Positions 2,812 through 30,912 of a DNA stretch of 33,219 nucleotides are shown piece after piece. This DNA is from a virus. The stretch's first letter is position 1; each line of letters starts with the position of its first letter. The notes beneath the pieces were generated by a model that saw nothing but the letters and a program-made list of their open reading frames with translations, was not told the origin of the DNA and did not search any database. Location of the stretch: positions 1-33,219 of the IMG/VR virus record IMGVR_UViG_3300046012_000230; one strand, given 5' to 3'. The position numbers and the translations under genes are program-made.

Positions 2812-2842
2812 ATCATAACCCCCAGTTTGGGGGGCTACACAA
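2812..2842 (-). promoter_or_regulatory. Palindromic-spacer promoter for the P-loop/terminase operon
   Basis: On the minus strand TTGTGT (2837-2842) and TATGAT (2812-2817) are separated by 19 bp that include a C6-AAACT-G5 inverted repeat. The architecture matches the sites at 10972, 12950, 16290 and 30884. If the 17-bp register of the best copies is used, the -35 would be the poorer GTGTAG. Confidence 0.65.
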
Positions 2843-2864
2843 TGTGACGCTCAGTTGTTGCGCG

Positions 2865-3146
2865 TCACGCCGGAACGACACTGCTTCCGTCGTAGTCGAT
2901 GTAGGGCCGCTCCTCGGGGCCGTCGCGGAACACGACGAACCAGCCGGGCTGGACTTCGAGGAACCCGAACTGCTGCGCGTTCGAGTCGTGGCGGAGCACG
3001 ACCGGCGCGTTCTCGCCCTCGCCCGGGTACACAGCCCAGTTCCACCAGGCATTGGTCTCCGCCTGGAGTTCGGCGAGGAAGGCGGCGGGGTCGCCGGTGA
3101 ACTGGACGCGCTTGTAGATCGTCTGCTTCTTCACGTAGTCGGTCAT
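2865..3146 (-). CDS. Small hypothetical protein
   Basis: A 93-residue protein rich in aromatic residues (NAWWNWAVY, PGWFVVF), probably a compact globular fold. I do not recognise the family. It lies 10 nt after the tail fibre gene at 3157 and is the last gene before the terminase promoter. This suggests co-expression with the tail fibres; a fibre-associated or chaperone role is only a guess. The ATG at 3146 has no strong ribosome binding site, so translation may depend on coupling. A much longer frame running upstream to 3965 is an artefact of reading antisense codons of the fibre gene. Confidence 0.65.
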   Translation of the reverse strand: MTDYVKKQTIYKRVQFTGDPAAFLAELQAETNAWWNWAVYPGEGENAPVVLRHDSNAQQFGFLEVQPGWFVVFRDGPEERPYIDYDGSSVVPA

Positions 3147-3156
3147 GCCGCACAGG

Positions 3157-4011
3157 CTATCCGGCGAACATGCCCCAGATCCGAACACGCGGCAGGCGGG
3201 TAAGCGTGGTGGCCGTAGCCGTCGCCGTGTTGTTGTAGAAGTAGAAGGTCCAGGCGGTCCCCGCCGTGAGCCAGATGCACCCGGACAGGCCCGTGTCGCC
3301 CCAGGTTGGCTGCATCGGGTGCTTCGGGGCCATGAGAAGAGTCGCGTCCGAGTAGCCACCGGATCCGGGTGTAAGACCCATCGCAACACCGCTGGCGACG
3401 ACGGTAGACATCCGGAACTGAACGTCGATGAAGTACAGGCCCTCAAATTCGTTCGTCCAGTCCCGGCCGCCATTGGTGACCGTGATCCCGTTGCCCGCCG
3501 CCTTCGCGGTGTCCCGCGTCGGGAAGAGCAGCGCGTTCGCGTTGGCCCCGAAGTTCTGGACGGAGCCATTCGTCCACTCGCCGCCGATCGCCTGGCCAGT
3601 CGCGACGGAGACGTTGATGGGCTGCCAGCCCAAGCCGACGCCGGATCCGAGATACTGCCAGCGGCGGTACTCGTCACCGGCGTTGATGACCTGCTGGCCG
3701 ATCTGGGGCGTGGTGATGTCCGCCGTGGAGGAGACGACCACCGTGCCCTGGACGATCCAGTTGGTGCCGTCGTAAACCTCAAGGAAGTTCTTGTCCAAGC
3801 GCCAATAGCCTTGCCCAGCAAGGGGAGCGACCGGCCGCCCCGCCGTGCCGGTGCCGGTGATGATGCCCGGCCCCTTCGCGTCCACGTACCCCTTCGTGGC
3901 CGCGTCCGTGCTCGCCGTCGGCGTGCCCAGCAGCGTGGCCTTCGAGCCGCCGAAGGACACGTCACCGCCAGTGAAGGCGGCTGGCGCGATGATCGGGACA
4001 GCAGCGGCCAC
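3157..4011 (-). CDS. Tail fibre / minor tail protein
   Basis: This 284-residue, Gly/Thr/Ala-rich protein has a phage-fibre composition. Residues about 25-46 contain the ATKGYVDA element common in tail fibres and collars, also present in variant form (NKTYVD) in the neighbouring fibre at 4015. The C-terminal half, with many aromatic and beta-prone residues (about 150-284), could be a receptor-binding or trimerising domain with a C1q-like or jelly-roll fold. The start is GTG at 4011, with GGAG upstream in the end of the preceding gene. It lies in the fibre cluster 5938-2865, far from the tail genes proper. The exact role is inferred from composition and context. Confidence 0.72.
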   Translation of the reverse strand: MAAAVPIIAPAAFTGGDVSFGGSKATLLGTPTASTDAATKGYVDAKGPGIITGTGTAGRPVAPLAGQGYWRLDKNFLEVYDGTNWIVQGTVVVSSTADITTPQIGQQVINAGDEYRRWQYLGSGVGLGWQPINVSVATGQAIGGEWTNGSVQNFGANANALLFPTRDTAKAAGNGITVTNGGRDWTNEFEGLYFIDVQFRMSTVVASGVAMGLTPGSGGYSDATLLMAPKHPMQPTWGDTGLSGCIWLTAGTAWTFYFYNNTATATATTLTRLPRVRIWGMFAG

Positions 4012-4014
4012 GGG

Positions 4015-5277
4015 TCAGCTCCGGATCTCGGCAGAGTACTGGCCGGCCGTCGGCGCCGTGCCCATGTCGATCGTGACGCTGGCGGAGCCGGGCGCGTTCA
4101 CGATCGAGCAGAACACCTGGGCGTTGTCCGAGTTCCGGTAGACCTGGACCTGGAGCCGCCGTCCGGCCGGTGGGGCGTACGGCGACGTGATCGTGACCGA
4201 CGTACCGGCGCCGGGCGCCGGGATCGCCACGGTGGCGGTCCGGCTCACCGTGTTGTCGACGGCGAGGCCGCCCGTGGTCGCGATGCCGCCGCCGCCGGTC
4301 GCCACCGCGCTGATCGTGGAGCCGACCACCTGGACGCCGTTGGTGCCGGTGTAGGTGACTTGGGCACCGAACTGCTTGATCACCACGGGGTCGGTGCCGA
4401 TGACCGGGTTCGTGGCGTTGGTGACGATCCACTGAGTAGCGCCGTTCGCCGTGCCGTTCTTAACGAACCAGAACGCGCCCGGAAGCTCCTCCTGCGGGGT
4501 CGCTCGCGCCCAGCTGCCCGCCGCCGCGATCCAGACGCCGTTCGAGACGTGGCCACCGGCGACGGCCTGGAGCACGCGGTCCCCCGCCACCAGGGTGTAG
4601 CCGTCGATCGTGGTCAGCCCGGACTTCGTCACGTTCGTGGTCGCCAGCACGGCCACGTCCGTCTTCACGTCCAGACCGGCGGTCGCGTTGGCCACCGCCG
4701 TGTCCACGTAGGTCTTGTTCGCGCCGTCGGTGCCCGTCGTGGGCGTGGCCACTGCCGTGAGCCGCTGGGAGTTGATGTTCAGCGGGTTGATCGGCGCGGC
4801 GAACTGGTCCAGCCGGTCGGACAGCGCGGCGGTGGCGGCCGCCGTCGCGAAGTTCGAGATAGCCGCGTCCGTGCGCTGGCCAGTGGTCAGGCTGAAGTCG
4901 CGCACCTGCGCGAGGGTCTGGCCGCCCAGCTTGTTCGAGTCCAGCGCCGTGGTGGCGGTCGTCGCCGTGGTCGCGCTGCCGGCCGTGGTGGCCGTGGTGG
5001 CGTTGTCGGCGTTCGTGGCGTGGTCGGCGTTCGTGGCGTGGGCCGCGTCCGTGGCAGTGGTGGCCGTGGTCGCCGTCGTCGCGGAGTCAGCGGTACCAGC
5101 GTCCGGCTTCTTCCACGCGGAGCCGGTGCACTCCCAGACCGTGTTCTGGTACCAGACCAGCCGGCCAGTCTGCGCGGCGGTGGCGGTGGGCAGCGCGCCC
5201 ACCGGCTCGATGTTCAGGTTCAACGGCGGGTAGTTCGCCAGATCCTGGCTCGCGGTGAACGGGATCGTTGCGACCAT
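4015..5277 (-). CDS. Tail fibre protein with Ala/Thr-rich repeat region
   Basis: A 420-residue fibre-like protein. The N-terminal region (about 1-60) contains GRLVWYQNTVWECTGSAW, a pattern seen in phage fibre head domains. Residues about 60-115 form a low-complexity run of short A-T-x repeats (for example HATNADHATNAD), typical of fibrous shafts, ending in SNKLGGQ. A central NKTYVDTAV motif is the common fibre element also found in the gene at 3157. The C-terminus is beta-rich. The ATG at 5277 has a good GGAGGT site that lies inside the last codons of the preceding gene. It probably builds the host-recognition appendage with its two neighbours. Confidence 0.78.
   Translation of the reverse strand: MVATIPFTASQDLANYPPLNLNIEPVGALPTATAAQTGRLVWYQNTVWECTGSAWKKPDAGTADSATTATTATTATDAAHATNADHATNADNATTATTAGSATTATTATTALDSNKLGGQTLAQVRDFSLTTGQRTDAAISNFATAAATAALSDRLDQFAAPINPLNINSQRLTAVATPTTGTDGANKTYVDTAVANATAGLDVKTDVAVLATTNVTKSGLTTIDGYTLVAGDRVLQAVAGGHVSNGVWIAAAGSWARATPQEELPGAFWFVKNGTANGATQWIVTNATNPVIGTDPVVIKQFGAQVTYTGTNGVQVVGSTISAVATGGGGIATTGGLAVDNTVSRTATVAIPAPGAGTSVTITSPYAPPAGRRLQVQVYRNSDNAQVFCSIVNAPGSASVTIDMGTAPTAGQYSAEIRS
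5005..5040 (-). repeat. Perfect tandem 18-bp repeat in the tail fibre gene
   Basis: Two adjacent identical 18-bp units (5005-5022 and 5023-5040) encode the doubled HATNAD element. They are embedded in a longer degenerate hexanucleotide-like array (about 4940-5095) encoding A-T-x repeats. Such arrays can change copy number by slippage and so alter shaft length. Confidence 0.85.
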
Positions 5278-5278
5278 G

Positions 5279-5938
5279 TCAGGTGACCTCCATCGTGCCG
5301 ATAACGGGGTCGCCGTGCTCGACCCTCACGGTGTTGGCGTCCGGCCAGCTGACGGAGCCGAAGAACTGCTTCCCGTTCTGATCACGGGTGGTCGGAAAGG
5401 GGTGCCGGTTCAGGCCGTGCTCGAACAGCCAGATCTTCGTGGGCGTGCTGAAGGTCTTCGACTGCCCGAGCAGGGGCGCGCGCTGAGCGATCCACTGGCC
5501 GTTGGGCCCGTACGCCAGGTGGTCGCCTACCTGCTTCCCGGCGGTGTCCACGTCGGAGAGGTCGTCCAGGGCCATGGACCACGGCGGGTCAGTCCCCGGC
5601 GGCGGGACGGCGATCAGCAGTTCCGACAGCCAGTGCGTCTCCCCCTCCGCCGTGATGCGGAAGGGCCACGCCATGCCGCCGGGGGCGCACCGTTCGTCGG
5701 CCAGGTAGTAGTTCCCGGCCTGCTCGATGTCCGCGTTCAGCAGCAGCGTGGCGGACCACTGGCCGGTGTGGTCAGTGTCGACGGGCGTGGTGCCCAGCAC
5801 CTCGCCGATACCGTTTGCCAGGAACGGATCGCCCGGGGCTATGAGCTTGATCAGCACGGTGACGTTCTGGAGGGCGCGGCCGCTCCCGTCCATCAGCGTG
5901 TTGATCACCGTCCCCCGACGGCCCACGGGCTCCGTCAC
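5279..5938 (-). CDS. Minor tail / baseplate-associated protein
   Basis: A 219-residue protein. Residues about 1-105 look like an immunoglobulin or transthyretin-type beta domain of the kind at the N-terminus of baseplate adaptors. LDDLSDVDTAGKQVGDHL (about 124-141) is a motif widely repeated in phage tail proteins. It is probably an adaptor between tail tip and fibres. The start is GTG at 5938 with GGGAGG six nt upstream. The first 167 nt overlap the extended 3' end of the RusA gene in another frame. It is the first of three fibre-cluster genes. Confidence 0.68.
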   Translation of the reverse strand: MTEPVGRRGTVINTLMDGSGRALQNVTVLIKLIAPGDPFLANGIGEVLGTTPVDTDHTGQWSATLLLNADIEQAGNYYLADERCAPGGMAWPFRITAEGETHWLSELLIAVPPPGTDPPWSMALDDLSDVDTAGKQVGDHLAYGPNGQWIAQRAPLLGQSKTFSTPTKIWLFEHGLNRHPFPTTRDQNGKQFFGSVSWPDANTVRVEHGDPVIGTMEVT

Positions 5939-6341
5939 GCGTCACCTCCCGGATCTCCAGGATCACTGTAGGGGTGGTCCGGTGCTCGGGGTCGTACGAA
6001 CGCGGGACCACCTCGGTGGAGGTCCGACGCACGTAGCGCGCCCGGTCGTCCGGCCACACGCCGGCCAGCGTGAGCCCGTCCAGGATCGGCTTCAGGGTGT
6101 CGCTGATGTTGTCCGAGTCGGCGCGGCGGTCGTCGCCGGGGTACCAGACCAGGTGCACGTCCGCGCGGGCGCCAGGCTGGAGGTGAAGGCCGTACTGCTG
6201 CTGCCAGTGCTTGCCCAGGTAGAACAGGTCATTGCGGGTCTCGGTGTACTCCTTGTGCGCTGGTGACCAGTGCTTCCGCCGGTTCGCGGACAGGGGTGGC
6301 CGCACGTACGGCAGCACGAACGACCACACCCCATCCGTCAT
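5772..6341 (-). CDS. rusA: RusA-family Holliday junction resolvase
   Basis: RusA-type enzymes cut Holliday junctions and branched DNA, helping recombination and resolving concatemers before packaging. The first 130 or so residues fit the family: LPYVRPPLSANRRKHW near the start, then the acidic signature DSDN (about 75-78) with K84 and D88 in DTLKPILDGL. The frame continues about 55 residues past the expected end, into the start of the next gene. A stop in the adjacent frame lies right where the family would end (5945-5947). The long tail may therefore be real, or reflect an indel. The gene sits between holin and fibre genes rather than with the replication genes. Confidence 0.85.
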   Translation of the reverse strand: MTDGVWSFVLPYVRPPLSANRRKHWSPAHKEYTETRNDLFYLGKHWQQQYGLHLQPGARADVHLVWYPGDDRRADSDNISDTLKPILDGLTLAGVWPDDRARYVRRTSTEVVPRSYDPEHRTTPTVILEIREVTRDGARGPSGDGDQHADGRERPRPPERHRADQAHSPGRSVPGKRYRRGAGHHARRH

Positions 6342-6344
6342 CAG

Positions 6345-6719
6345 TCAGCCCGCCCGCAGGTTGGTGACCTTGGGGACCACCTGGCCGCGCGCGTCGATCG
6401 GCGCCACGACCTGCGGACGCACCAGGAGGCCCAAGACCGCCTGGACCATGAACATGACTTCGGCCTGCTGCTCGGGGGTCCACTTCAGCCCGAACGCCAG
6501 GCCCAGCGCGATGCCCGCCTTGAACAGGCCGGTGACGGCCGGGACGGCGGAGCCGTCGCGGACCACGATCGCCTGGATCACGCCCACGATCGCCAGCGAG
6601 AAGGCCGCGATCAGGCCCTGGGTCTCGATGCTGATCGGGGTCAGGAAGGCGGACACGAACTGGACGATGGCCGCCACCAGCCCCAGCCACAGCACCGGGT
6701 CCCTGCCGAAAATCTTCAT
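6345..6719 (-). CDS. Holin-like membrane protein
   Basis: The 124-residue protein has at least two clear transmembrane segments (about residues 9-27 and 34-53) and further hydrophobic stretches (about 62-78 and 86-100). The C-terminus is polar with basic residues. It follows the GH25 endolysin by 19 nt, the standard position for a holin, which would time membrane lesion formation and let the endolysin reach peptidoglycan. The ATG at 6719 has a GAGAGGA site upstream. The sequence itself is not diagnostic; the call is topology plus position. Confidence 0.75.
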   Translation of the reverse strand: MKIFGRDPVLWLGLVAAIVQFVSAFLTPISIETQGLIAAFSLAIVGVIQAIVVRDGSAVPAVTGLFKAGIALGLAFGLKWTPEQQAEVMFMVQAVLGLLVRPQVVAPIDARGQVVPKVTNLRAG

Positions 6720-6738
6720 GATCGTTTTCCTCTCGATG

Positions 6739-7755
6739 TCACCCGAGCAGGTAGCTCGGGACGAACGTCACAGCCGTGCGGCCGTTGCTGGACAGCTGGT
6801 AGGCCACCCGCGTAGTGCCCTTCGGCACCTCGTACGCCTGGGCGTTGTTCCAGTCGCACCGGCGCTCACTGTTGCCCAGCCACTTCGCCGACGGCACCAC
6901 GGAGTGGCCGCCGCCCGTCCCGCCGCCGGGACCGAAGCAGTAGACCGGGGCGCCCGGGTCCGGGTTCCCGAAGAAACAGATCTGGTCGTCGATCGGCTGG
7001 ACGACCAGCTGGCCGCCGCACGGCGGGACCAGCTGCCATGCCTTCTCCACCTGGTTGCCCTGGCTGTCGATCGGGGTCTTCTGGTGGATCACGGGGTTGA
7101 ACATCGCTTCCTCCATCTGTGCGACGGTCAGCCGGCCGCCGGGGGTTGGGGTCGGGGTGGGCGTCGGGCTCGGACCGGGACCGGGCCGGGGACCGACGAT
7201 CACCGGGGCGTCGCCGGTGTTCAGGTCGACGCCGGACGCCGTGATGCCCGGGACCACGCCCGAGCTGCTGTGCTGCCACGTCCGGTACCAGTTCTTCGGC
7301 GAGGCGCCGTACCGGGCGATCCAGGGCCACGTCCCGGCGACCGCGTTCCGCACGGTGGCCAGGATGTAGCTCATCATGGAGTCGTTCGCGTAGAAGACCG
7401 GGATCTGGCTGTTCGCTTCCGCCCGGCGAAGCCACGCGATGGCGAACTGGGCTGCCGTGTTGCCCGGCACGAACGGGTCTTCGAGGTCGAGCGCCGGGGA
7501 CAGGTCCAGGGCGTTGCGCGCCCGTGCGGTCCTCAGCAGGAGGTCGTACTGGTCAGCAGCGGAGCCGGGCTGGGCGTAGCCGTAGAGCCCCACCGCGATG
7601 CCCGCTGCGCGCGCCCTCGCCGGCCAGTCCGAGGTGTCCCGGGTGGTCATGCCGTCGGTGCCCTTGAGGTACGCGAAGGTCTTCCCGGAGCGCCGGACGG
7701 CGGCCCAGTCGCGGACGTTCTGGTACTTCGTGTACACGTCGATGCCGTCAGCCAC
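6739..7755 (-). CDS. lysA: Endolysin, GH25 lysozyme domain plus C-terminal domain
   Basis: The 338-residue enzyme should cut the glycan strand of host peptidoglycan. Residues 1-182 match GH25: GIDVY at 4-8 (Asp6), the catalytic pair in ALDLED (Asp90, Glu92), and the typical end WQHSSSGVVPGI...VDLN. A Pro/Thr linker (about 190-207) leads to a C-terminal domain with four cysteines (CGG, ICF, YCF, RCD) that probably binds the cell wall. GTG at 7755 is chosen because a GGAGGAG site precedes it and it lies right after the protease stop. A longer in-frame opening to 8280 is antisense noise. Holin follows and the papain-like protease precedes it. Confidence 0.92.
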   Translation of the reverse strand: MADGIDVYTKYQNVRDWAAVRRSGKTFAYLKGTDGMTTRDTSDWPARARAAGIAVGLYGYAQPGSAADQYDLLLRTARARNALDLSPALDLEDPFVPGNTAAQFAIAWLRRAEANSQIPVFYANDSMMSYILATVRNAVAGTWPWIARYGASPKNWYRTWQHSSSGVVPGITASGVDLNTGDAPVIVGPRPGPGPSPTPTPTPTPGGRLTVAQMEEAMFNPVIHQKTPIDSQGNQVEKAWQLVPPCGGQLVVQPIDDQICFFGNPDPGAPVYCFGPGGGTGGGHSVVPSAKWLGNSERRCDWNNAQAYEVPKGTTRVAYQLSSNGRTAVTFVPSYLLG

Positions 7756-7757
7756 GG

Positions 7758-8549
7758 TCAGCTCCTCCCGGTCGGCACGGCCACGTCGCCGTGGAGCTTC
7801 AGCAGCTGGTCCAGGTGCGTGAAGCGCAGGTACGCCTTCCCGTGCACGCCCCAGCCGTCGCCCCAGCTGTTCGTCAGCTCGACCGCCTGCCGCTCGAAGT
7901 CCACGCCGGTCGCCTCGATCTGGTGCCCGCCGGCCAGGCCGGTGAAGGGCTGGACGATCAGGTACCCGGCGTGGTCCACCGAGAACATGGAGTTGAACCA
8001 GGGCAGCCCGAGGGAGATCGGGGAGACCTGGAGCAGGCGCTTCACGGTGGCGAGCGAGAAGGCCCAGCGATAGCCCGGGATCAGACCGTCCGCGCGGAGC
8101 TGTTTCATGCTCCACAGGCCGGTGCTTCCGGTGTCGTCGGGCGGGTACTGCCCGGGGATCTGGCGGTCGTCCAGCGCGGTCTCCCGCGAGTAGAACGCCA
8201 GGGCGTCGGCCGTGGTGAACAGCTTCGAGCCCACGAAGGGCTCGGTGTTCATCAGCCCGAGCGCGGCCATGCCGGTGCACGCGCCCACGCTGCCCTGGTC
8301 GAAGATCTGGCCGTACCGCTGGTGATAGGTGGTTCGCTCGGTGGTGACGTGCTCGACCAGTGCGGCCGCGTCGTACTCCAGCGAGCGGTTGTCGTGGAGC
8401 ACGTGGCGCCCGAGCCCGGGGCCTTGCTCCAGCCGGTGGAAATACTGACCGGTGACCGATGGGACTCCTAGGTCAAAGTCCCCGGTGTCCGGCTGGCGCG
8501 GCGGGCCGTCGGCCACCCCGTCGCCGTTCTCGTCAAAGTGGTTGCCCAT
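7758..8549 (-). CDS. Papain-like (C1 family) cysteine protease
   Basis: The 263-residue protein has the full papain signature: QGSVGAC (oxyanion-hole Gln85, nucleophile Cys91), AGGHQIEATG (His209) and LTNSWGDGWGVHGKAY (Asn227 plus the conserved Gly/Trp pattern). There is no obvious signal peptide or propeptide; the first 30 residues are acidic and polar. ATG at 8549 has GGAGGT seven nt upstream. The gene begins the lysis cassette, directly before endolysin and holin. It may cut peptide cross-links or host surface proteins at lysis, or act on virion proteins. Activity is well supported by motifs; substrate is unknown. Confidence 0.88.
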   Translation of the reverse strand: MGNHFDENGDGVADGPPRQPDTGDFDLGVPSVTGQYFHRLEQGPGLGRHVLHDNRSLEYDAAALVEHVTTERTTYHQRYGQIFDQGSVGACTGMAALGLMNTEPFVGSKLFTTADALAFYSRETALDDRQIPGQYPPDDTGSTGLWSMKQLRADGLIPGYRWAFSLATVKRLLQVSPISLGLPWFNSMFSVDHAGYLIVQPFTGLAGGHQIEATGVDFERQAVELTNSWGDGWGVHGKAYLRFTHLDQLLKLHGDVAVPTGRS

Positions 8550-8579
8550 GTGGCTTACCTCCGAGGGGCAGCCTACGCG

Positions 8580-8606
8580 ACTCACCCCCCGAACTGGGGG
8601 GTGAGT
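8580..8606. promoter_or_regulatory. Palindromic operator/terminator between replication and lysis genes
   Basis: Eleven-bp perfect arms (ACTCACCCCCC and complement) flank a 5-bp centre. The 17-bp core C6-AGTTC-G6 (minus strand) has the same C6-N5-G6 form as the promoter spacers at 12956 and 30890. Here the flanks CACTCA and TGAGTC are poor -35 and -10 elements. It lies 8 bp after the helicase stop, so it may be a terminator, an operator without promoter, or both. Confidence 0.65.
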
Positions 8607-8614
8607 GCGTCGCA

Positions 8615-9934: not shown

Positions 9935-9935
9935 G

Positions 9936-10721
9936 TCAGAACTCCAAGCGCTGATTGCCGACGACGCGAGCAGCGTTCGACGGGCGAGCGGGGGCCGGGC
10001 GAGCGGGGGGCTTCGGGCCGCCCCGGAGCGTGTTCGCGAGGCGTTCGGCGGTGAGGGTCCAGTTGTGCTCCGCGATGTAGGCCAGCGCGTCGTCCACGGC
10101 CTTGTCCGGCCAGTCGTGCGTCAGGGCCTGTTTGATGATCTTCGCGAAGGCGGGCACGTTCCCCATCTTCCCCAGCCGCTCGTAATGCTGCCCGGCAAGT
10201 GCGTTGGCCCGCTGGTTGATCGTGAGCGGCTTGGCAGGGGCGTCTTCCTCGCGCTGCTCGGGGACCTCGAAGAGCGCTTCCGACGCGGCAGCGGCGGGGG
10301 TCTGGTCTTCTTGCTTGTTGATCTTCTTGGAATTGGTCTTCTTATGTGTGCCGGTTTCCCGGGCACCGGCTTCACCGTCGCCGGGCGAGCCGTGTACGGA
10401 AAACCCGGATGCGGTTTCACCTGCGGGAACGTCCGAAATCCGGTACTCCACGCCCGTGAACTTGCCGTGCTCGCCGGTCTGCTGCTCGCGGATCAGGTAG
10501 CCCGCGTCCTCCAGCTCCTTGAGCCCCGACTGGACCGCCTCCGCCCCGGCACCCACCTGGGTCGCGATCGAGCGGATGGAGAGCTTCCAGCCCTCCGTGT
10601 GGCTCAGCAGCCAGATCCCGAGCCCGCGAGCCTTCAGGCTCAGCCGGGCGTCACGGATGATCTTGTTCGACACGATGGTGAAGTTGTCGGCAGCCAGCGG
10701 GCCGCGCCGGATCACGCTCAT
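9936..10721 (-). CDS. Winged-helix DNA-binding replication protein
   Basis: A 261-residue protein. Residues about 28-85 form a winged helix (LSLKARGLGIWLLSHTEGW, SIRSIATQVGAGAEAVQSGL, LEDAGYLIREQQ), a pattern known from RepA/DnaD-like phage initiators. A Lys-rich, low-complexity linker follows (about 110-160). The C-terminal third (HDWPDKAVDDALAYIAEHNWTL) is helical, and the tail is Pro/Arg-rich. With the helicase directly downstream, this is probably the origin-binding or helicase-loading protein. ATG at 10721 is preferred over GTG at 10730 because GGGGTG lies at a fair distance. The neighbourhood has no other obvious initiator. Confidence 0.74.
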   Translation of the reverse strand: MSVIRRGPLAADNFTIVSNKIIRDARLSLKARGLGIWLLSHTEGWKLSIRSIATQVGAGAEAVQSGLKELEDAGYLIREQQTGEHGKFTGVEYRISDVPAGETASGFSVHGSPGDGEAGARETGTHKKTNSKKINKQEDQTPAAAASEALFEVPEQREEDAPAKPLTINQRANALAGQHYERLGKMGNVPAFAKIIKQALTHDWPDKAVDDALAYIAEHNWTLTAERLANTLRGGPKPPARPAPARPSNAARVVGNQRLEF

Positions 10722-10762
10722 GCCGAGCACCCCGCCGGGGGGAAAACGTCGGGGGTCGTTGC

Positions 10763-10788
10763 TACAATCACGCGAGAACTCCAGTTCT
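10763..10788 (+). promoter_or_regulatory. Possible plus-strand promoter with dyad at its start site
   Basis: TACAAT at 10763-10768 is a good -10 on the plus strand, and the perfect dyad AGAACTCCAGTTCT (10775-10788) lies where transcription would begin. No convincing -35 is visible. GAAC-N4-GTTC resembles the core of actinobacterial LexA boxes, but such a short match can occur by chance. The transcript would run antisense to the replication-operon leader and into the hairpin at 10850. Confidence 0.3.
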
Positions 10789-10879: not shown

Positions 10880-10886
10880 CTTCGCG

Positions 10887-10971: not shown

Positions 10972-11002
10972 ATCATAACCCCGTGGTGAGGGGTCAGAAC
11001 AA
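10972..11002 (-). promoter_or_regulatory. Palindromic-spacer promoter for the replication operon
   Basis: TTGTTC (10997-11002) and TATGAT (10972-10977) are 19 bp apart on the minus strand and enclose the inverted repeat ACCCC-N7-GGGGT. It shares GATCATAACCCC (plus strand) with the site at 2811. It overlaps the end of the gene at 10994. No start codon lies 7 nt after the -10, so a leader of about 240 nt is expected before 10721. This is the most degenerate copy. Confidence 0.55.
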
Positions 11003-11554
11003 CTGCTGTGGCCCAAGGGTTTCCGGCTTGGTAGCGGAGGCGCCCTCCGTTCCCAGCAGCTTCTCCGCTGCCGCCTCGCCGGCCAGGGTCAGTTGCCAGC
11101 ACTGCCACCACCGGCCCCGGTGCTCGCGCGTCACGGCCTTCCCGTTGATGACCACTGGAACGACCAGCTGGGCGTCCACCAGCTCGCCGCGCCGGGGTCG
11201 CTCGGTGTTCGGGTCCATCTTGAGCTTCTGCTGGATCTCCCAGTCCGTGAGGTCCCCGAAGCGGTAGATGGCCAGCAGAACCTCCGCGCGCTTCGAGCCC
11301 GGCCGCATGACGCCCAGCGCGGCGGCCCGGCTGGTCGCCAGCGCGTCGTTCCGGACCTTCCCGGCGTGATCGTCCGTGGCGGCACCCACCATGGCATCCC
11401 GGGCATCTGAGAGCCGCTGGATTGCGCAGTCCAGTTCGCGTCGGAGACCGGAGGCGATCTGGGAGAGCGAGCCCTGGTCACGGACCTTGTCCAGGTCGCG
11501 CGCCAGCACCAGCGCGCGCTCCGTGCACGCCAGCGCATCGGTGATATGGCCCAT
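10994..11554 (-). CDS. Hypothetical protein with winged-helix-like C-terminal half
   Basis: The 186-residue protein has an amphipathic helical N-terminal half (DALACTERALVLARDLDKVRDQG...). The segment about 105-180 resembles a winged helix: RAEVLLAIYRFGDLTDWEIQQKL, RRGELVDAQLVV, then the wing-like CWQLTLAGEAAAEKLL. It could be a DNA-binding regulator, but no specific family is recognised. It is the last gene of the five-gene unit starting at 12942. ATG at 11554 follows the previous stop by 2 nt; AAGGGA, within the end of the upstream gene, is the ribosome binding site. The gene ends inside the replication-operon promoter. Confidence 0.68.
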   Translation of the reverse strand: MGHITDALACTERALVLARDLDKVRDQGSLSQIASGLRRELDCAIQRLSDARDAMVGAATDDHAGKVRNDALATSRAAALGVMRPGSKRAEVLLAIYRFGDLTDWEIQQKLKMDPNTERPRRGELVDAQLVVPVVINGKAVTREHRGRWWQCWQLTLAGEAAAEKLLGTEGASATKPETLGPQQLF

Positions 11555-12660: not shown

Positions 12661-12942
12661 TCAGTTCTCCTTGGCGTACTCGATGATGGCGTCTCGACCC
12701 GGGTCAAGCTGGCCATGGTCCACGACGGCGTGGGGTGCGCAGCAGCGGCACGTGTTCAGGAGGTCGGTCCCGCCGTCGTAGGTGGGCACGTAGACGTTGC
12801 ACTCGATCGTGCGGCCTTCGAGTTGGCAGACCGGGCACGCCTCGCCGTGGTTGTCGATGTGATCGGGCCACTCTTCGCGGAAGATCAGGTGCACTTCCGG
12901 GCGGCCGGTGATGCTCCGCTGGAGCGGGCGGTGGGTGGTCAT
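12661..12942 (-). CDS. Small zinc-knuckle protein from a leaderless transcript
   Basis: The 93-residue protein carries CPVC (about 37-40), a further Cys in ECNVY, and CRCC (about 69-72) followed by APH. This set could bind one or two zinc ions. The function is unknown. ATG at 12942 is chosen because it lies exactly 7 nt after the TACGAT -10, so the mRNA should begin at the start codon; no ribosome binding site is present. The longer frame to 12978 would begin upstream of the promoter and cannot be expressed from it. First gene of a five-gene unit. Confidence 0.74.
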   Translation of the reverse strand: MTTHRPLQRSITGRPEVHLIFREEWPDHIDNHGEACPVCQLEGRTIECNVYVPTYDGGTDLLNTCRCCAPHAVVDHGQLDPGRDAIIEYAKEN

Positions 12943-12949
12943 ATTCCGG

Positions 12950-12978
12950 ATCGTACCCCCCATTTTGGGGGGACACAA
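12950..12978 (-). promoter_or_regulatory. Palindromic-spacer promoter, leaderless
   Basis: TTGTGT (12973-12978), a 17-bp spacer that is wholly the inverted repeat C6-AAAAT-G6 (12956-12972), and TACGAT (12950-12955) on the minus strand. Seven nt later comes the ATG at 12942. The spacer is identical to that at 30890-30906. A terminator hairpin abuts the -35. Confidence 0.82.
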
Positions 12979-16289: not shown

Positions 16290-16320
16290 ATCTTACCCCC
16301 TATAATGGGGGTAAGTGCAA
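16290..16320 (-). promoter_or_regulatory. Palindromic-spacer promoter, leaderless, possibly divergent
   Basis: On the minus strand TTGCAC (16315-16320) and TAAGAT (16290-16295) enclose a palindrome with arms TTACCCCC and GGGGGTAA (16293-16314). The ATG of the ribbon-helix-helix gene lies 7 nt after the -10. On the plus strand the palindrome centre reads TATAAT (16301-16306), a perfect -10, and could start the HNH gene 40 nt downstream, although no good -35 is seen. Confidence 0.68.
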
Positions 16321-23471: not shown

Positions 23472-23474
23472 CTG

Positions 23475-24298: not shown

Positions 24299-24396
24299 GA
24301 TCTTCCTCCAGATCGTTGGTACAGCACGGAAAAGGTCGATGGTGCCACCGAGCACAAGCGCGATGACCATCCACAGTGGAAGGATGATGAGGTCCG

Positions 24397-25370: not shown

Positions 25371-25597
25371 TTCCCGCTCGACTTCCGACGGGCGCTCTCC
25401 GTCCTCACAGCCTTGGCCGGCGGCGGGGTGCGACGCGGACGGCGGGTGCGGCGGGCCGGGGCCTTCTTCTCGACCGGTTCCGGCGGCGGTGGCTGCTCTT
25501 CTGCGGGCTTCGGCGGCTCGGTGGTGTCCTTGGCCGGAGCCGGGGCTTCGTGCCCGGAGAAGGGATCGTGGGGCCTGATCAGCTCATCATCGGTCAT
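25367..25597 (-). CDS. Small Pro/Lys-rich protein in the connector cluster
   Basis: A 76-residue low-complexity protein: an acidic/Pro N-terminal half (PPKPAEEQPPPPEPVEKK) and a very basic C-terminal half (RRTRRPRRTPPP, ARRKSSGK). It is probably disordered and could bind DNA or another head protein. No family is recognised. ATG at 25597 lacks a good ribosome binding site, but no better start is in frame, and the 29-nt gap after the adaptor gene plus the 4-nt overlap with the next gene support a real gene. Confidence 0.6.
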   Translation of the reverse strand: MTDDELIRPHDPFSGHEAPAPAKDTTEPPKPAEEQPPPPEPVEKKAPARRTRRPRRTPPPAKAVRTESARRKSSGK

Positions 25598-25626
25598 GCG
25601 GGCCAGCGTAGACCAATGACACCCCT

Positions 25627-26481
25627 TCAGGCGGGGGGTGCGATCCGCGTTGCCGTCGGCAGGTCCGGGCTCCACACGCTGGCCATCCGGCGCGGCCGGG
25701 TGCCGTTCTTCCGACGGGGATTCACCGACTCGATCCACAGATCTACGGTCGGCACGCCGGTGCGCTGCTCCTCCAGGAACTTGGACACGTCCATGGTGAC
25801 CGTGATCCCCTGGCGGGTGATGGTGGAGGCGTTCGGCGGGATGGCACACCCCTGCTCGCCGCACCAGGACCGGACCAGCTCGATGGCGAGCGTGACGCAC
25901 GCCGCGATCCCGCCCACCGGCGGGTTGCTGCCCCGGTCGTAGTGGATCACCGTTGGGCCTTCGTCCCCGCACCCGGACCAGCCGGCCCCGTCGGTGCGCT
26001 GAAGCCAGCCCGAGGTCAGCAGTTCATACCGGCTCGGGTCCATCACCGAGCCGTCGCCCAGCACGACCTCCGTCACGGCGGTGGCGCTCGGATCCAGCTC
26101 CACGGCGACTGGCCGGGGGTGAGCGCCGCGCCACGCCGCATTGAACAGCCACGCATCCGCGTAGTTGGTGGCGTAGCTCAAGCCCGGCGCCTGGACCCAG
26201 CAGCCGCACGCGCCGATGTCCTGGAACGGCCAGGTGCCACTTCCGACCGCCAGCGGCCGCGTGCGGATCTCCGCCGTCTCGTGGCAACCCGAGCCGCGCC
26301 ACCGGTGACCGGTCAACTGGTACAGCAGCTCGGACGCCATCATGAGCACGGTCTGCCACTGGGGCGTGGAGACCCGCACCCGCCACTTCTCCGGGATGTC
26401 ACTCGGAGACGCCCACGGCCCGCACAGGATGGAGCTGGCCTGTGCGGGCGGCAGGTCGGGGATCGGAAGCGGGGTGGTCAC
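25627..26481 (-). CDS. Head-to-tail adaptor protein
   Basis: The 284-residue protein resembles actinophage head-tail adaptors. The C-terminal segment CAIPPNASTITRQGITVTMD (about 210-229), followed by a helix and RTGVPTVDLWIESVNP, matches the family pattern P-x-x-V-x-S-x-T-R-Q-G, then strand and G-x-x-x-V-D-x-x-I-x-x-x-N-P. The N-terminal part (PEKWRVRVSTPQWQTVLMMASELLYQLTG) is the helical core. It docks below the portal and starts the neck. GTG at 26481 overlaps the stop of the preceding gene (GTGA). Confidence 0.78.
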   Translation of the reverse strand: MTTPLPIPDLPPAQASSILCGPWASPSDIPEKWRVRVSTPQWQTVLMMASELLYQLTGHRWRGSGCHETAEIRTRPLAVGSGTWPFQDIGACGCWVQAPGLSYATNYADAWLFNAAWRGAHPRPVAVELDPSATAVTEVVLGDGSVMDPSRYELLTSGWLQRTDGAGWSGCGDEGPTVIHYDRGSNPPVGGIAACVTLAIELVRSWCGEQGCAIPPNASTITRQGITVTMDVSKFLEEQRTGVPTVDLWIESVNPRRKNGTRPRRMASVWSPDLPTATRIAPPA

Positions 26482-27149
26482 GGCACCTGCGCGACAACCG
26501 GCACCAGACCGGCGTCCAGGTCGGGCAGCGTCGCCTCACGGACGTACTGCCAGACGCGGTCCGACGGGCTGTCGAAGTCGTCGTTCGGACCGGTGCCCCA
26601 GCCAGCATTCTGGGTGCTGTAGCCGTCGAACTCCGGCAGCATGGCCGCGTCCCCACCGAGCACCCACGACCCCGAGGGGATCAGGAAGGCGCGCGGGACG
26701 ACCCAGTGGAAGTACGGCAGGTTGGTGGCCAGCGCGGAGCCGATGACCGCCTTCGTCCAGAACTCCAGGGAGACGCCGTTCGGGGTCTCCTCCACGCCCG
26801 TCTGGGGCGCCCGGTATCCGATCTGGTTGGGCGTCGGAGTGGCGGAGTCGTTGATCACGTCACCGCCGATCAGGAACGCCAGCAAGTTCGGGTCCGGGGT
26901 GCAGATCTGAAGGCCCTTGATCGAACCGCGCTTGAGCGTGTACGGCGCCTGGTAGTTGACGCACGCGACGCCCGAGCCGTTCAGCTGGGTGACCTGCTTC
27001 GCGTCTTCGTACTCCAGGCCCAGCTCCACCTTCACCAGGGCGTCGGAGGTGTAGGCGTTCGTCGTGCCCACGCTGGGCTTGCCGTCCACGTCCAGCTTGG
27101 CCACGCGCACACCGAGGGCGAACAGCGTTCCCGCACCGTCGTAGGTCAT
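26478..27149 (-). CDS. Probable major tail tube protein
   Basis: A 223-residue protein. The stretch TSDALVKVELGLEYEDAKQV (about 34-53), then TQLNGSGVACVNYQAP, LKRGSIKGLQICTPDPNLLAFLIGG and a later SLEFWTK resembles the actinophage major tail protein pattern. That pattern reads S-D-G-F-V-x-V, E-Y-x-D-G-x-E-x-x-Q-K-N, C-V, then L-K-R...C-x-x-D-P-E-L-x-A-L-x-x-G. It should polymerise into the tail tube. ATG at 27149 has AGAGGAG upstream. Its place before the connector genes, rather than just before the chaperones, is unusual, so a head-related role remains possible. Confidence 0.58.
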   Translation of the reverse strand: MTYDGAGTLFALGVRVAKLDVDGKPSVGTTNAYTSDALVKVELGLEYEDAKQVTQLNGSGVACVNYQAPYTLKRGSIKGLQICTPDPNLLAFLIGGDVINDSATPTPNQIGYRAPQTGVEETPNGVSLEFWTKAVIGSALATNLPYFHWVVPRAFLIPSGSWVLGGDAAMLPEFDGYSTQNAGWGTGPNDDFDSPSDRVWQYVREATLPDLDAGLVPVVAQVP

Positions 27150-27168
27150 GATCCTTCTCCTCTAGCCG

Positions 27169-27984
27169 TCACGGGAACTTGATCGCGACACTGGCGCACG
27201 GGTCGTAGCCAGCGACGAAGAGGCGATCGGCCCAGACCTGCTGCCGGTTCGTCCGGCGGTCGATGGTCATGGCCGGGTCGCCCATGGTGGACACTGTGGA
27301 CAGTCGCGTGAAGACGGGACCCGTTGCGTAGCCCCAGATTCCCGTCTGGACGCCCGGACCCTTGCCCGTGTACCCGGCGTCCGCAATCACCACGGCGTCG
27401 GTTGCGGTCCGGATCTCGTTCCCCACCTTGAACAGGCTGGCCGCCACCTGGGTAGCGATCACGATGGGGATGTGCAGGAAGACGCGCTGGCCCTTCGTCC
27501 GCTCCCGCGCGGCCTGCTCCAGCATCCCGAGACCCTGGAGCAGCGACGTGGCGGCGGTCAGCTCCTCCGCGTTGCCGTCGGCGAAGTACGGATTCATGAC
27601 GCCGGTCTCGCCGTGCGCCGTCACGTCGAACGGGGCCGCCCGGGTCCCGGCACCTTCGGCCAGCTCGCGCGCGAGGGCGAACGACGCTACCGCGTTGGCC
27701 TGCCGGGTGATTCGCTGGACCGCCGCGTCCAGATCCACCCCGAGGGTCGTGCACTCGCTGGTGAGCCGGTATCCGAGCGGAGACAGGAAGGTCACACCCG
27801 ACGGCGTGCCGTCCATGGTGTCCGTCTCCGCGCAGGGGTCGAACACCTCCAGCGTCGGGCAGGTCTCGCCGATGAAGGAGATGCCGTTCTCCCAGTCGCC
27901 CGAGTTGTCCGGCGGAGCGCTGGTGAGCAGGTTCGCCGACGACTGGGCGGCGGCCTGTGGTGCCTGGACTTCGACGAAGTACAC
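27169..27984 (-). CDS. Structural (head) protein of unknown type
   Basis: The 271-residue protein directly follows the major capsid protein. It contains alternating helix and strand segments, for example DLDAAVQRITRQANAVASFALARELAEGAGT, FLHIPIVIATQVAASLF, and a C-terminal RQQVWADRLFVAGYDPCASVAIKF. The end resembles capsid-type chains that finish with a strand containing VAGYDPC. It may be a second capsid, decoration or capsid-associated protein. GTG at 27984 is supported by a GAGAGGAG site. A strong hairpin between capsid gene and this one may lower its expression. Confidence 0.6.
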   Translation of the reverse strand: MYFVEVQAPQAAAQSSANLLTSAPPDNSGDWENGISFIGETCPTLEVFDPCAETDTMDGTPSGVTFLSPLGYRLTSECTTLGVDLDAAVQRITRQANAVASFALARELAEGAGTRAAPFDVTAHGETGVMNPYFADGNAEELTAATSLLQGLGMLEQAARERTKGQRVFLHIPIVIATQVAASLFKVGNEIRTATDAVVIADAGYTGKGPGVQTGIWGYATGPVFTRLSTVSTMGDPAMTIDRRTNRQQVWADRLFVAGYDPCASVAIKFP

Positions 27985-28015
27985 CTGATCTCCTCTCGCG
28001 GGTGGGCCTGATCAA

Positions 28016-28050
28016 CCGCCCGGCCCCCCGTCGGGGTGAGGGCCGGGCGG
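28016..28050. terminator. Intercistronic hairpin after the capsid gene
   Basis: Perfect 11-bp arms CCGCCCGGCCC (28016-28026) and complement (28040-28050), with a smaller CCCC/GGGG hairpin in the loop, begins 6 nt past the capsid stop. On the minus strand it is followed by TTGATC rather than a U-run. It may be a partial terminator or mRNA stabiliser that keeps capsid expression high relative to downstream genes. Confidence 0.72.
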
Positions 28051-28056
28051 AAGAAA

Positions 28057-29793
28057 TCAGGCGTCCCAGCCGCCAGCCGGGACGGCCTTGGTGCCCGCCG
28101 CCGAACCGTCCGGACGGAGCGGCAGGACCACCCGCAAGGACTCCTTGCCGGTGAACGCCACACCCTCGAAGGTCTCGATGAACGTCTGGTAGCGGTTCCG
28201 CTTGTTCAGCTCGGAGTCCCGCACCAGGCCCAGGTCCAGCGTGCCGCCGTCCAGCAGCAGCCAGTCACCCTCCACGAACAGCAGGCTGTCCACGTTGTCC
28301 GGGTACATCGGGACGACCTGGCCGGCGGCGGTGTCGTCGTAGAACTGCTGGTCGATCACGACCGTGGACACCGTGGCGCCCGCGAGCCCGTCCAGGTGCC
28401 AGGTGACGTTCACGCCGCGCGTGGAGAACCAGCGCTCCAGCTCCGCCTGTGCGATACCGAACAGCTCGCCCGGGGACGCCATGGTGAAGCGCCGCGCGAG
28501 GTCGGTCATCAGCAGGTTGATCACCCACTGGGGCATGATCGTGCGGAGCGACACCCGCGAGTTCAGGCGGTGCCGGTTCCGGTAGTAGGCGATCACCCGG
28601 TCGTAGCTGGCCAGCAGGTCGGCGACCGCCGACACCGCCGGACCGACGCCCTTCAGGATCTTGGAGGCGGAGAACAGCCGGGACAGCAGGTTGTTCTCCG
28701 TGTACCGGCTCCAGGCGATCTGTGCCGCCTGGGTCGTCGCCCGGACCCACTCGGTGTCAAACCGAGCGGTCATGTTCGGGAACTCCAGGCACATGTACGT
28801 GCTGTAGATCGAGGCTTCGAGCACGCCGGGGCAGCTCACCACATAGCACGACTTGTACGTGTTGGTGTCCGGGTCCGGCGGCGGGACCACGATCGCCTGG
28901 TCGTTCGCCTGGGTCCACATGCCCAGTCCACTGGTCATCGCCAGTGCGTCGAACGGCGCCCGGTACTGGAGGATGCCGCGCTCCGTCCGGAACGTGTTCA
29001 GCGCCTGGTGGACCGGACGGTCCGTCACGCCCAACACGTTGATGTCGTAGCGGACCTCCGGGGGCAGGCAGAGCCCGCCGGCCGCCACGATGGCCTCTTC
29101 GGAGGTGGCCGCCGCGATGCGCGCCTGGTTCGCTGCCGAGTCGTCGCCCAGCGTGCGCTCCGCCGGGTAGGCGAACTCCACGTGCGCGATGTTCGCGGAG
29201 CCGTTGCCCTTCGAGCGGGCGACGGCGGCGAACGCCTTCACGAAGGCGTCTTCGGTCAGCTGCTGGCCCGGCGAGAAGCCCGGCACTCCGGCCGCTACGG
29301 TGGTGGTCGCCTGGACCAGGCCCGCCTTCGGGCCATCCTGCTCGGGCGATCCGTCCTTGCCGATCTTGCCCAGGCCGGACGCGGTGCGGCCCTTCTTCGC
29401 GGGGGCCTTCTTGCCGTCGCCCTTGTCGTCTTCGGCCGGCTCCACGTCGGCGCCCGGGTCGGTGGTCGCTCCCGCGTCCTCCGGCTTCGGCACGTCCTTC
29501 GTGTTCTCCTCCGTCGGCTGCTCCACGTGGTCGCGCGCCGGGTCGTGCACGCCGTCCAGCTCCGCCAGGGCGGCGGTCTGCTTGCCTGCCAGCTCCGCCT
29601 TCTGGGTGAGCGCGGCGGACAGCGTCTTGGCGTCGGCCACGACCTTGTCCAGGGCGGCCACGTTGTCGGCGGTCGGCGGGTTGGCGGCCAGCTCGCGGCC
29701 CTGCGCACCCAGGGCGGCAAGAGCCGCGCGGATGTCCGCTTCGCTGGCGTTCGCGAGATCCCCCAGGATCTCCGCAATGCGCTTCGGGTCCAC
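28057..29793 (-). CDS. Major capsid protein with long N-terminal scaffold-like region
   Basis: A 578-residue protein. About the first 100 residues are helical and Ala/Leu-rich (LGDLANASEADIRAALAALG..., AALTQKAELAGKQTAALAEL), then a charged linker (about 100-150), as expected for a delta/scaffold domain fused to an HK97-fold capsid chain and removed at maturation. The capsid part starts near residue 175 (FVKAFAAVARSKG...) and contains GGLCLPPEVRYDI, APFDALAMTSGLGMW and NVTWHLDGLAG. It is unusually long for HK97-type capsids. GTG at 29793 has a good GGAAGGGG site; the open frame continues upstream to 29885 without one. Confidence 0.82.
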   Translation of the reverse strand: MDPKRIAEILGDLANASEADIRAALAALGAQGRELAANPPTADNVAALDKVVADAKTLSAALTQKAELAGKQTAALAELDGVHDPARDHVEQPTEENTKDVPKPEDAGATTDPGADVEPAEDDKGDGKKAPAKKGRTASGLGKIGKDGSPEQDGPKAGLVQATTTVAAGVPGFSPGQQLTEDAFVKAFAAVARSKGNGSANIAHVEFAYPAERTLGDDSAANQARIAAATSEEAIVAAGGLCLPPEVRYDINVLGVTDRPVHQALNTFRTERGILQYRAPFDALAMTSGLGMWTQANDQAIVVPPPDPDTNTYKSCYVVSCPGVLEASIYSTYMCLEFPNMTARFDTEWVRATTQAAQIAWSRYTENNLLSRLFSASKILKGVGPAVSAVADLLASYDRVIAYYRNRHRLNSRVSLRTIMPQWVINLLMTDLARRFTMASPGELFGIAQAELERWFSTRGVNVTWHLDGLAGATVSTVVIDQQFYDDTAAGQVVPMYPDNVDSLLFVEGDWLLLDGGTLDLGLVRDSELNKRNRYQTFIETFEGVAFTGKESLRVVLPLRPDGSAAGTKAVPAGGWDA

Positions 29794-29885
29794 GATCGGC
29801 CCCTTCCGTGTCGTCTCGGTGACGGGGGCCGTATCGGTGCTTAGAGCGCCAGCGCGGTGATCGGGCTTGGAGCCCGGAACGCGCA

Positions 29886-29924
29886 AGTGCCCCGTCTCCC
29901 GGCGAGCGTAGGAGACGGGGCACT
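29886..29924. terminator. Strong hairpin terminator before the capsid gene
   Basis: Perfect 14-bp arms AGTGCCCCGTCTCC (29886-29899) and complement (29911-29924), loop of 11 nt, 11 bp after the stop of the accessory operon. On the minus strand it ends in CTTGCG without a U-run. It should separate accessory genes from the capsid operon. I find no convincing promoter in 29794-29885. Confidence 0.78.
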
Positions 29925-29935
29925 CAGCGTGTCGG

Positions 29936-30166
29936 CTATGTGTGGGATCTACGGGAGCGACGCGACCGCAGGTAGTCCGGTGGGGCGAAGATCCGGGCCG
30001 CTCCCCCGAGCAGCTGAATGGTGGCCTGCCGGTCGAACCAGACCAGCAGGGTGGCCGTCAGGAGGACCAGCGACCAGGCAGCGAGCGCGAAGCAGAGCCA
30101 GATCATGGCCGCGAAGCACCAGAACAGGCCCTTGAACAGCAGGTACCCGAGGTACAACACGATCAT
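29936..30166 (-). CDS. Small two-helix membrane protein
   Basis: A 76-residue protein dominated by hydrophobic segments (about 4-25, YLGYLLFKGLFWCFAAMIWL, and about 27-48, ALAAWSLVLLTATLLVWF), then a basic tail (RSRRSRRSHT). This suggests a hairpin of two transmembrane helices with a cytoplasmic C-terminus. The ATG at 30166 overlaps the stop of the upstream gene (ATGA) and has only a weak ribosome binding site, so coupling is likely. Function is unknown; a second holin/antiholin-like or exclusion role is possible but unsupported. Confidence 0.65.
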   Translation of the reverse strand: MIVLYLGYLLFKGLFWCFAAMIWLCFALAAWSLVLLTATLLVWFDRQATIQLLGGAARIFAPPDYLRSRRSRRSHT

Positions 30167-30600
30167 CGGGGGTACTCGCCATCGATCCATTCGGCCGCGT
30201 AGCCAGCGGGCGTGTAGCTGTACTTCTCGGTGGTGATCAGCTCGCGCACCCACTCCGGGAAGTCGGACGCGCTCACGCGCTGCTCCGCACCCAAGGTGCC
30301 GTCCCGCTTGATGTTCGAGCCGGTCAGGGTGAAGCCGTAGTCCAGCCGCCAGGCGTCGCCGTTGATCGAGCGGAAGGTGAGGTGAAGTGCCTCCGGGCGG
30401 ACCTTGTTCGTGGAGCGCTCCGTCTTGCCGAACGGCTCGCCACCGATGATCTCGAACCGCGCGGCCACGGTCTCGACAACCGTCGTCTCCGTCGCGGTCG
30501 CGGGGGTCAGTCCGGCCGCCATGACCTCCGCCGTGTAGCTCGCCTGCTGGGTCTCCACGCGGGTGTAGCGCCAGTTCTGGATCGTGATGCTGGCGTCCAT
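30163..30600 (-). CDS. Hypothetical protein
   Basis: A 145-residue protein with mixed alpha/beta character (ITIQNWRYTRVETQQASYTAEVM, LHLTFRSINGDAWRLDYGFTLTGSNIKRDGTLG, FPEWVRELI). It has no membrane segment or recognised motif. ATG at 30600 is supported by a strong AAAGGAGG site; the open frame continues upstream to 30675 only because no stop intervenes. It overlaps the following membrane protein gene by 4 nt. A hairpin (30631-30679) lies just upstream, so either readthrough or a local promoter must drive it. Confidence 0.68.
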   Translation of the reverse strand: MDASITIQNWRYTRVETQQASYTAEVMAAGLTPATATETTVVETVAARFEIIGGEPFGKTERSTNKVRPEALHLTFRSINGDAWRLDYGFTLTGSNIKRDGTLGAEQRVSASDFPEWVRELITTEKYSYTPAGYAAEWIDGEYPR

Positions 30601-30630
30601 GACGCCTCCTTTGGGGTGGTGGTGGTTGGT

Positions 30631-30679
30631 GCGGGCTCCGGCCGTCGGCCCGGTGCCATCCGGCGGCCGGAGCACCCGC
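30631..30679. terminator. Imperfect hairpin after the 63-residue membrane protein gene
   Basis: Arms GCGGG+CTCCGGCCG (30631-30644) and CGGCCGGAG, a 2-nt CA bulge, then CCCGC (30664-30679) form a long stem with a 19-nt loop. It begins 5 bp after the stop at 30685 and probably terminates, perhaps partly, transcripts from the leaderless promoter at 30884. Confidence 0.6.
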
Positions 30680-30684
30680 GATAC

Positions 30685-30876
30685 TCAGAAGATCCAGGAG
30701 AAGACGGCCACGAAGGTGCCGATCACCCAGTCGTACGCCGTGGCAATCGAGTTCCAGGCCATCCCCGGCACGGCCACAACATCAGTGCGGACGCCGGGGA
30801 GCAGCAGGAGAAGCAGCGGGAGCACGATCAGCACGGCGGGTGCGAGCTTGGCGGCGGTGGTCTTCGCGTTCGTCAT
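30685..30876 (-). CDS. Small membrane protein from a leaderless transcript
   Basis: A 63-residue protein with one clear transmembrane segment (about 11-27, LAPAVLIVLPLLLLLLPGV) and a second amphipathic or hydrophobic stretch near the C-terminus (WVIGTFVAVFSWIF). ATG at 30876 sits exactly 7 nt after TACGAT of a near-consensus promoter, so the mRNA should start at the ATG with no leader. A hairpin follows the gene, so it may be a single-gene unit. Behind the strongest copy of the promoter family, it is a good candidate for an early or lysogeny-related membrane function such as exclusion, but this is conjecture. Confidence 0.74.
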   Translation of the reverse strand: MTNAKTTAAKLAPAVLIVLPLLLLLLPGVRTDVVAVPGMAWNSIATAYDWVIGTFVAVFSWIF

Positions 30877-30883
30877 GAGTGGA

Positions 30884-30912
30884 ATCGTACCCCCCATTTT
30901 GGGGGGTGTCAA
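30884..30912 (-). promoter_or_regulatory. Consensus palindromic-spacer promoter, leaderless
   Basis: TTGACA (30907-30912), a 17-bp spacer that is entirely C6-AAAAT-G6 (30890-30906), and TACGAT (30884-30889) on the minus strand form the best promoter in the window. It overlaps the stop codon of the upstream gene at 30909. ATG follows 7 nt after the -10. The spacer is identical to that at 12956-12972. Confidence 0.88.

Follow-up and report, generated by a model that had tools for sequence, protein, structure and literature searches.

A spacer-seated palindrome in the promoters of an uncultured phage group and a predicted ribbon-helix-helix protein as its candidate regulator

Does a palindrome made of a cytosine run facing a guanine run, placed between the -35 and -10 boxes of scattered promoters, act as a common operator, and if so, which protein would bind it? 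The question is raised by a 33-kb fragment (69% GC) of an uncultured tailed phage, IMG/VR virus record IMGVR_UViG_3300046012_000230, positions 1 to 33,219, the whole of which is called the window here; its genes lie on the minus strand nearly throughout and include those for tape measure, capsid, ERF, SSB, helicase, endolysin, holin, and terminase. The original prediction had listed five minus-strand promoter-like sites sharing such a palindrome. All five were found at the coordinates and on the strand predicted, and the identity of 12956-12972 and 30890-30906 over 17 bp was confirmed; four of the palindromes are strong (2812, 12950, 16290, and 30884), while that at 10972 is a weak variant, C4-N7-G4. 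The spacer palindrome is interpreted in this study as an operator within sigma-A type promoters, at which a phage regulator, most likely the predicted ribbon-helix-helix (RHH) protein encoded at 15863-16282, would exclude polymerase phage-wide; this interpretation is considered fairly probable.

A strict scan for two copies of the half-site CCCCCCA three bases apart, requiring at least 12 of 14 matches, found five palindromes in the window (2818, 8585, 12956, 16296, and 30890), against a mean of 0.63 and a maximum of 3 in 200 first-order Markov shuffles; the same scan with the complementary control half-site GGGGGGT found none in the window. With the capsid, the 139-aa protein encoded at 15863-16282, the tape measure, and the motif as queries, about two dozen related contigs were retrieved. 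The IMG/VR relatives, with contigs of up to 61 kb, form four divergent groups on the basis of gene content and protein identity: A (G000-G006 and the window), B (G007-G012), C (G018), and D (G020 and G024), with partial contigs besides. The motif search across relatives proposed with the original prediction shows that the motif recurs in these roughly two dozen contigs, with 20 palindromes each in G018, G020, and G024, 14 in G010, and 11 in G006 (Markov expectation about 0-1). A standard sigma-70 scan found only 30884-30912 within 20,001-33,219 and nothing within 1-20,000, missing the other window sites because their -35 boxes are TTGTGT, TTGTTC, or TTGCAC.

Sites in which the palindrome fills the promoter spacer are termed class I, and 83 non-redundant sites of 145 in total, from 18 contigs, make up the set. 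Their consensus is TTGacN-(17/18)-TAagaT, with the spacer filled by the 17-bp CCCCCCA-NNN-TGGGGGG. The twelve outer positions of the palindrome are C or G at 87-100% and A7 and T11 are kept at 92%; the central three bases are variable (TTT, AAA, CGG, TCT, and others), and this free triplet fits a protein that contacts the two half-sites alone, the centres of which are 10 bp apart. The TTG of the -35 box is conserved at 93/89/81%, the spacer is 17 bp in 44 sites and 18 bp in 31, and the hexamers are of host sigma-A (sigma-70) type, being TTGACA- and TATAAT-like, 16-19 bp apart, and ahead of genes. Nearly every string of the form TTGAC[AT]-(17-19)-TANNNT in these contigs (52 of 53) has the motif. 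The start codon lies 5-8 nt past the -10 hexamer at 39 of the sites, and to judge from this spacing those promoters would give leaderless mRNA; among the 44 remaining, 34 have a Shine-Dalgarno sequence and a start within 75 nt. Proteins starting at these sites frequently begin with MTN, MTT, or MTE.

The original prediction had also asked whether the motif is equally common inside genes. It is not, since only three class I sites are interior, compared with a random expectation of 49.3 and a minimum of 37 in 200 draws. The gene 150 nt downstream shares the strand of its class I site in 68 cases and has the opposite one in two. All 43 deviating base pairs in the palindromes are one-sided and none is compensated, which points to constraint on DNA base identity and not on RNA pairing, although the test is low in power as the sites were preselected at 12 or more of 14 matches. 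Symmetry, half-site conservation, and the lack of compensatory change fit a double-stranded DNA operator for a symmetric protein, and placement, strand bias, symmetry, and uncompensated deviations lend support to the earlier reading of the palindrome as a likely operator. Such an operator, marking nearly every strong promoter, would amount to a readable regulatory code for an uncultured phage group; the motif yields predicted transcription and translation starts for dozens of unknown genes and points to one protein.

As far as searched, the motif in its present form is confined to one uncultured phage group, which is of actinobacterial type. Relatives of the major capsid protein and terminase in named phages reach about 40% identity or less only, the 139-aa protein has no relatives in named phages, and a BLAST search with the 34-base consensus found no named phage with the motif, although the low-complexity filter may hide some. 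Among 84,980 bacterial and archaeal species genomes scanned for TTGACNCCCCCNNNNNTGGGGGG there were just 19 single matches, in unrelated taxa, and CCCCCCA-NNN-TGGGGGG is absent from both actinobacterial genomes matched. A comparable actinophage promoter family was not found in the open-access literature.

Table 1. Palindrome-bearing sites of the window and the genes discussed with them.
Feature	Position (strand)	Sequence elements	Remarks
Class I site	2812..2842 (-)	TTGTGT-19-TATGAT around AGCCCCCCAAACTGGGGGT	Palindrome 13/14; with leader
Weak class I-like site	10972..11002 (-)	TTGTTC-19-TATGAT around TGACCCCTCACCACGGGGT	Below 12/14 threshold
Class I site	12950..12978 (-)	TTGTGT-17-TACGAT around CCCCCCAAAATGGGGGG	14/14; leaderless start ATG 12942
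Class I site	16290..16320 (-)	TTGCAC-19-TAAGAT around TTACCCCCATTATAGGGGG	12/14, weaker operator; leaderless start ATG 16282
Class I site	30884..30912 (-)	TTGACA-17-TACGAT around CCCCCCAAAATGGGGGG	14/14; leaderless start ATG 30876
Class II site	8585..8601 (-)	CTCACCCCCCAGTTCGGGGGGTGAG, then TAGGCT (-10) and Shine-Dalgarno	Peptidase/lysis gene follows; no -35 box
Class II site	25622..25638 (-)	CCCCCCGCCTGAAGGGG, 11 nt, TACGCT, 7 nt	ATG 25597; no -35 box
Terminase unit	2120-about 2719; 2-1525		P-loop/terminase-small and terminase-large; downstream of 2812 site
HTH_36 replication-initiator-like protein	9936..10730 (-)		Downstream of 10972 site
186-aa protein	10994..11554 (-)		Winged-helix-like C-terminal part; rival DNA-binding candidate
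93-aa Cys-rich protein	12661..12942 (-)		Zinc-ribbon-like; first gene downstream of 12950 site
Candidate regulator, 139 aa	15863..16282 (-)		Tandem RHH; strands 14-22 and 74-82 (predicted)
63-aa hydrophobic (membrane) protein	30685..30876 (-)		Downstream of 30884 site

The individual sites of the window (Table 1) have counterparts in the relatives: orthologous sites of the one at 12950 occur in groups A, B, and C and those of the one at 16290, which precedes the candidate regulator gene, in all four groups, and the hexamers and arms of the 10972 site, about 240 bp upstream of its replication-initiator gene, recur in G001, G003, and G005. The distance from the -10 hexamer to the start codon is 7 nt at 12950, 16290, and 30884. 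Of the units originally placed behind the sites, the one at 2812 calls for amendment, its first gene being P-loop NTPase-like (PHROG "terminase small subunit") and not leaderless; its leader (2715-2805, minus strand) has a perfect 15-bp inverted repeat, GGTGATCGGTCTCGC...GCGAGACCGATCACC, followed by a GTG start near 2719. Downstream of the 10972 site, the region 10840-10925 (minus strand) has a Shine-Dalgarno-like GAGAGGG with a six-codon open reading frame (ORF), ATG ACG CTA CAC CCC CCG TAA, and a strong hairpin, GGAGCCGGACCC...GGGTCCGGCTCTCC, ahead of the replication gene; it looks like a leader with a terminator or attenuator. A perfect hairpin at 12979-13018 (minus strand), AGTAGACCCCCGGG...CCCGGGGGTCTACT, adjoins the -35 box of the 12950 promoter and is likely the terminator of the upstream SSB unit.

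The protein encoded at 15863-16282, put forward in the original prediction as the candidate, is supported as a predicted tandem RHH protein linked to the motif. In all four groups, and in every contig covering the locus, its gene lies downstream of a motif promoter; it is present in exactly the same 15 contigs as ERF and encodes a protein of 28-29% identity in group D. The protein has no sequence match in Pfam, PHROG, or PDB. A cross-group alignment shows two similar repeats, and the AlphaFold2 model has strand-helix-helix twice (mean pLDDT 75.6, pTM 0.68, about 90 in the first-repeat core); the strand-helix-helix arrangement with two units per DNA-binding body that defines the RHH fold is seen in the predicted structure only. 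The top structural matches (Foldseek, VIA-align) are F-plasmid relaxosome chains (Z 9.3), presumably TraY, a tandem RHH protein, to go by the fold and what is known of the relaxosome, and AvtR of an archaeal virus (Z 7.0); the named viral structural matches include RHH proteins. Like TraY, its best structural match, the candidate would have tandem RHH in one chain, but TraY is a relaxosome protein with 5-7% identity and different DNA. AvtR of Acidianus filamentous virus 6 is described as having both of its RHH motifs in one chain and as being monomeric when it binds DNA (PMC5569661), and the model suggests a similar single-chain viral regulator; however, AvtR is an archaeal-virus protein acting on AT-rich imperfect repeats (PMC5569661), and a sequence relation is undetectable. 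In strand 2 of the model, R74, R76 (K in group D), and R78 are on one face, which by strand alternation may suit guanine contacts in the G-runs, and in strand 1 E18 is invariant.

Binding would involve an operator of two facing CCCCCCA half-sites across three free bases, their centres on one helix face. One RHH chain would form a pseudo-dimer and place its two-stranded sheet in the major groove at one half-site; two such chains would cover one palindrome, keeping RNA polymerase off practically all strong promoters simultaneously. Early in infection, host polymerase would fire all promoters, the RHH protein would accumulate, and the whole set would be turned down together. In every group the operator of the gene itself matches at 12-13 of 14 positions, compared with all 14 in 50 of the 83 class I sites; an imperfect own operator suits negative autoregulation with late self-shutdown, so that the protein may repress its own gene via the weaker copy.

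A further placement, class II, has the palindrome centred some 26-32 bp upstream of the likely start and a TANNNT behind it, with the TTG box missing at -35. The arrangement at 8585 is repeated in G001, G006, G022, group B, and G018, and that at 25622, ahead of the leaderless tail-region ORF 25367-25597, in groups A, B, and C; in these three groups both the position and the sequence context of class II sites are repeated, and the tail-gene copies have weaker half-sites. Relatives also have class II sites ahead of a 131-aa gene and of a divergent operon (small membrane protein, DUF2637/HNH protein, FtsK-like protein). From their layout, class II sites are candidate activator-dependent promoters. 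It is possible, if doubtful, that one tandem-RHH protein is a two-way switch, turning class I off from the spacer (centre near -22) and class II on from about -26 to -32 by replacing the -35 contact at the lysis, tail, and FtsK/DUF2637 operons. Phage phi29 p4 represses early promoters and activates late ones, and the class I/class II split would resemble this if one protein does both, although protein and sites are unrelated. If so, the same sign shifted by 4-10 bp would have opposite outcomes, a clean case of operator position alone setting repression or activation.

Several points weigh against an RHH protein that occludes the spacer. Class II sites do not fit simple occlusion, so that the original proposal of a protein blocking RNA polymerase at the spacer would hold for class I placement and leaves class II unexplained. 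Neither Pfam nor PDB sequences match the protein to RHH, including in a PDB profile search with its own alignment, the alignment underlying the AlphaFold2 model has 12 sequences only, and Foldseek E-values against PDB are 0.06 and above. No integrase was found, hence a role in lysogeny is unsupported. The RHH protein is most likely the regulator, but it is assigned by linkage, fold, and elimination, and conservation of about the same breadth is seen for two winged-helix proteins (9936-10730 and 10994-11554). That the operator is bound by one of these two or by an unrecognised phage protein is regarded as unlikely. Each is conserved across almost the same set of contigs as the RHH protein, and winged-helix dimers commonly bind palindromes of this half-site spacing; however, neither has a strong motif promoter directly ahead of it in all groups, and 9936-10730, which matches HTH_36 (E 5.6e-7), also matches many phage replication-initiator families, pointing to origin binding.

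A host regulator whose operator the phage has borrowed is conceivable in that all hexamers are of host sigma-A type and such promoters are targets of host WhiB-like or CsoR-like regulators, but the scarcity and taxonomic scatter of the 19 genome matches, the two actinobacterial ones being without the full palindrome, make it very unlikely. The least probable explanation is that upstream transcripts form an RNA hairpin, with a 7-bp stem and 3-nt loop, that stops or processes read-through before the next promoter. The palindrome is able to form it, and at the class II lysis site the stem is longer and its outer bases vary between groups with complementarity kept. In class I, however, base identity is kept and deviations are uncompensated, the distance from motif to hexamers is fixed, a U tract is missing, and leaderless transcripts started at the element exclude the palindrome. 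For the preferred operator reading, other kinds of regulator were rejected. A MerR spacer mechanism does not agree with spacers of 17 or 18 bp, not 19-20, in 75 of 83 sites, and PF13411 was found in none of 14 contigs, which may be incomplete, compared with 12 of 14 control genomes. Cro/CI-type repressors (HTH_3, PF01381; other helix-turn-helix (HTH) types were not exhaustively tested) and CsoR-type G-tract binders (PF02583) were likewise not found in the 14 contigs. WhiB is in 8 of 14 contigs and absent from the 55-kb G020 and G024, with 20 sites each; G018, G021, and G026 have two WhiB genes per contig, several near motif promoters.

Dispersed operators have precedents. The conserved inverted repeats (CIRs) of the actinophage phiC31, the sites of its repressor, are dispersed, mostly intergenic palindromes, and 13 exact copies of CTACTCACGTGAGTAG were counted in NC_001978. 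Identity with the present element was rejected, the palindrome being a different one: the CIR sequence is CTACTC-N4-GAGTAG, and among the copies listed TTGACA/TANNNT framing is not regular. In cluster A mycobacteriophages, the L5-type repressor has more than 20 short operator or stoperator sites genome-wide, in promoters and intergenic gaps; these sites are asymmetric, 13 bp long, and recognised by a monomer that contains an HTH (PMC9283540). The phages studied here likewise have many sites dispersed in promoters and gene gaps, but each is a 17-bp palindrome, in class I within the promoter spacer, and the candidate fold is RHH. Repeated operators dispersed over a phage genome are therefore known already (L5 stoperators, PMC9283540; phiC31 repeats); new are this palindrome, its fixed spacer seat in almost all strong promoters, the predicted leaderless output, the second placement, and the tandem-RHH candidate.

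Unlike phiC31, which encodes an integrase, the phages here have none detected: no tyrosine or serine recombinase was found in 15 contigs, although these are not proven complete and the absence is not final. An integrated prophage was rejected on this ground and because no sequenced genome has repeated motif copies. Classical integrated lysogeny is unlikely for the same reasons; a better fit is early shut-off, an early-to-late switch, or regulation of an extrachromosomal state. The divergent operon with class II sites (L043:12585-15537 in G006 and L047:14848-17840 in G010) encodes HNH (DUF2637 in G006) and FtsK-like proteins, a kind known from actinobacterial plasmids, and their occurrence in phages where no integrase was detected suggests a lifestyle like that of a plasmid, or transfer. 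The 131-aa protein downstream of class II sites (cluster 21) was rejected as a regulator, as neither Pfam nor PHROGs shows a recognisable DNA-binding domain in it. Its family (L044:1932-2327 in G006 and relatives) is without a known domain and usually lies downstream of palindromes, and its members share the conserved C-terminus ITPTGGCGCG..LK.W.P.WA....PWP.

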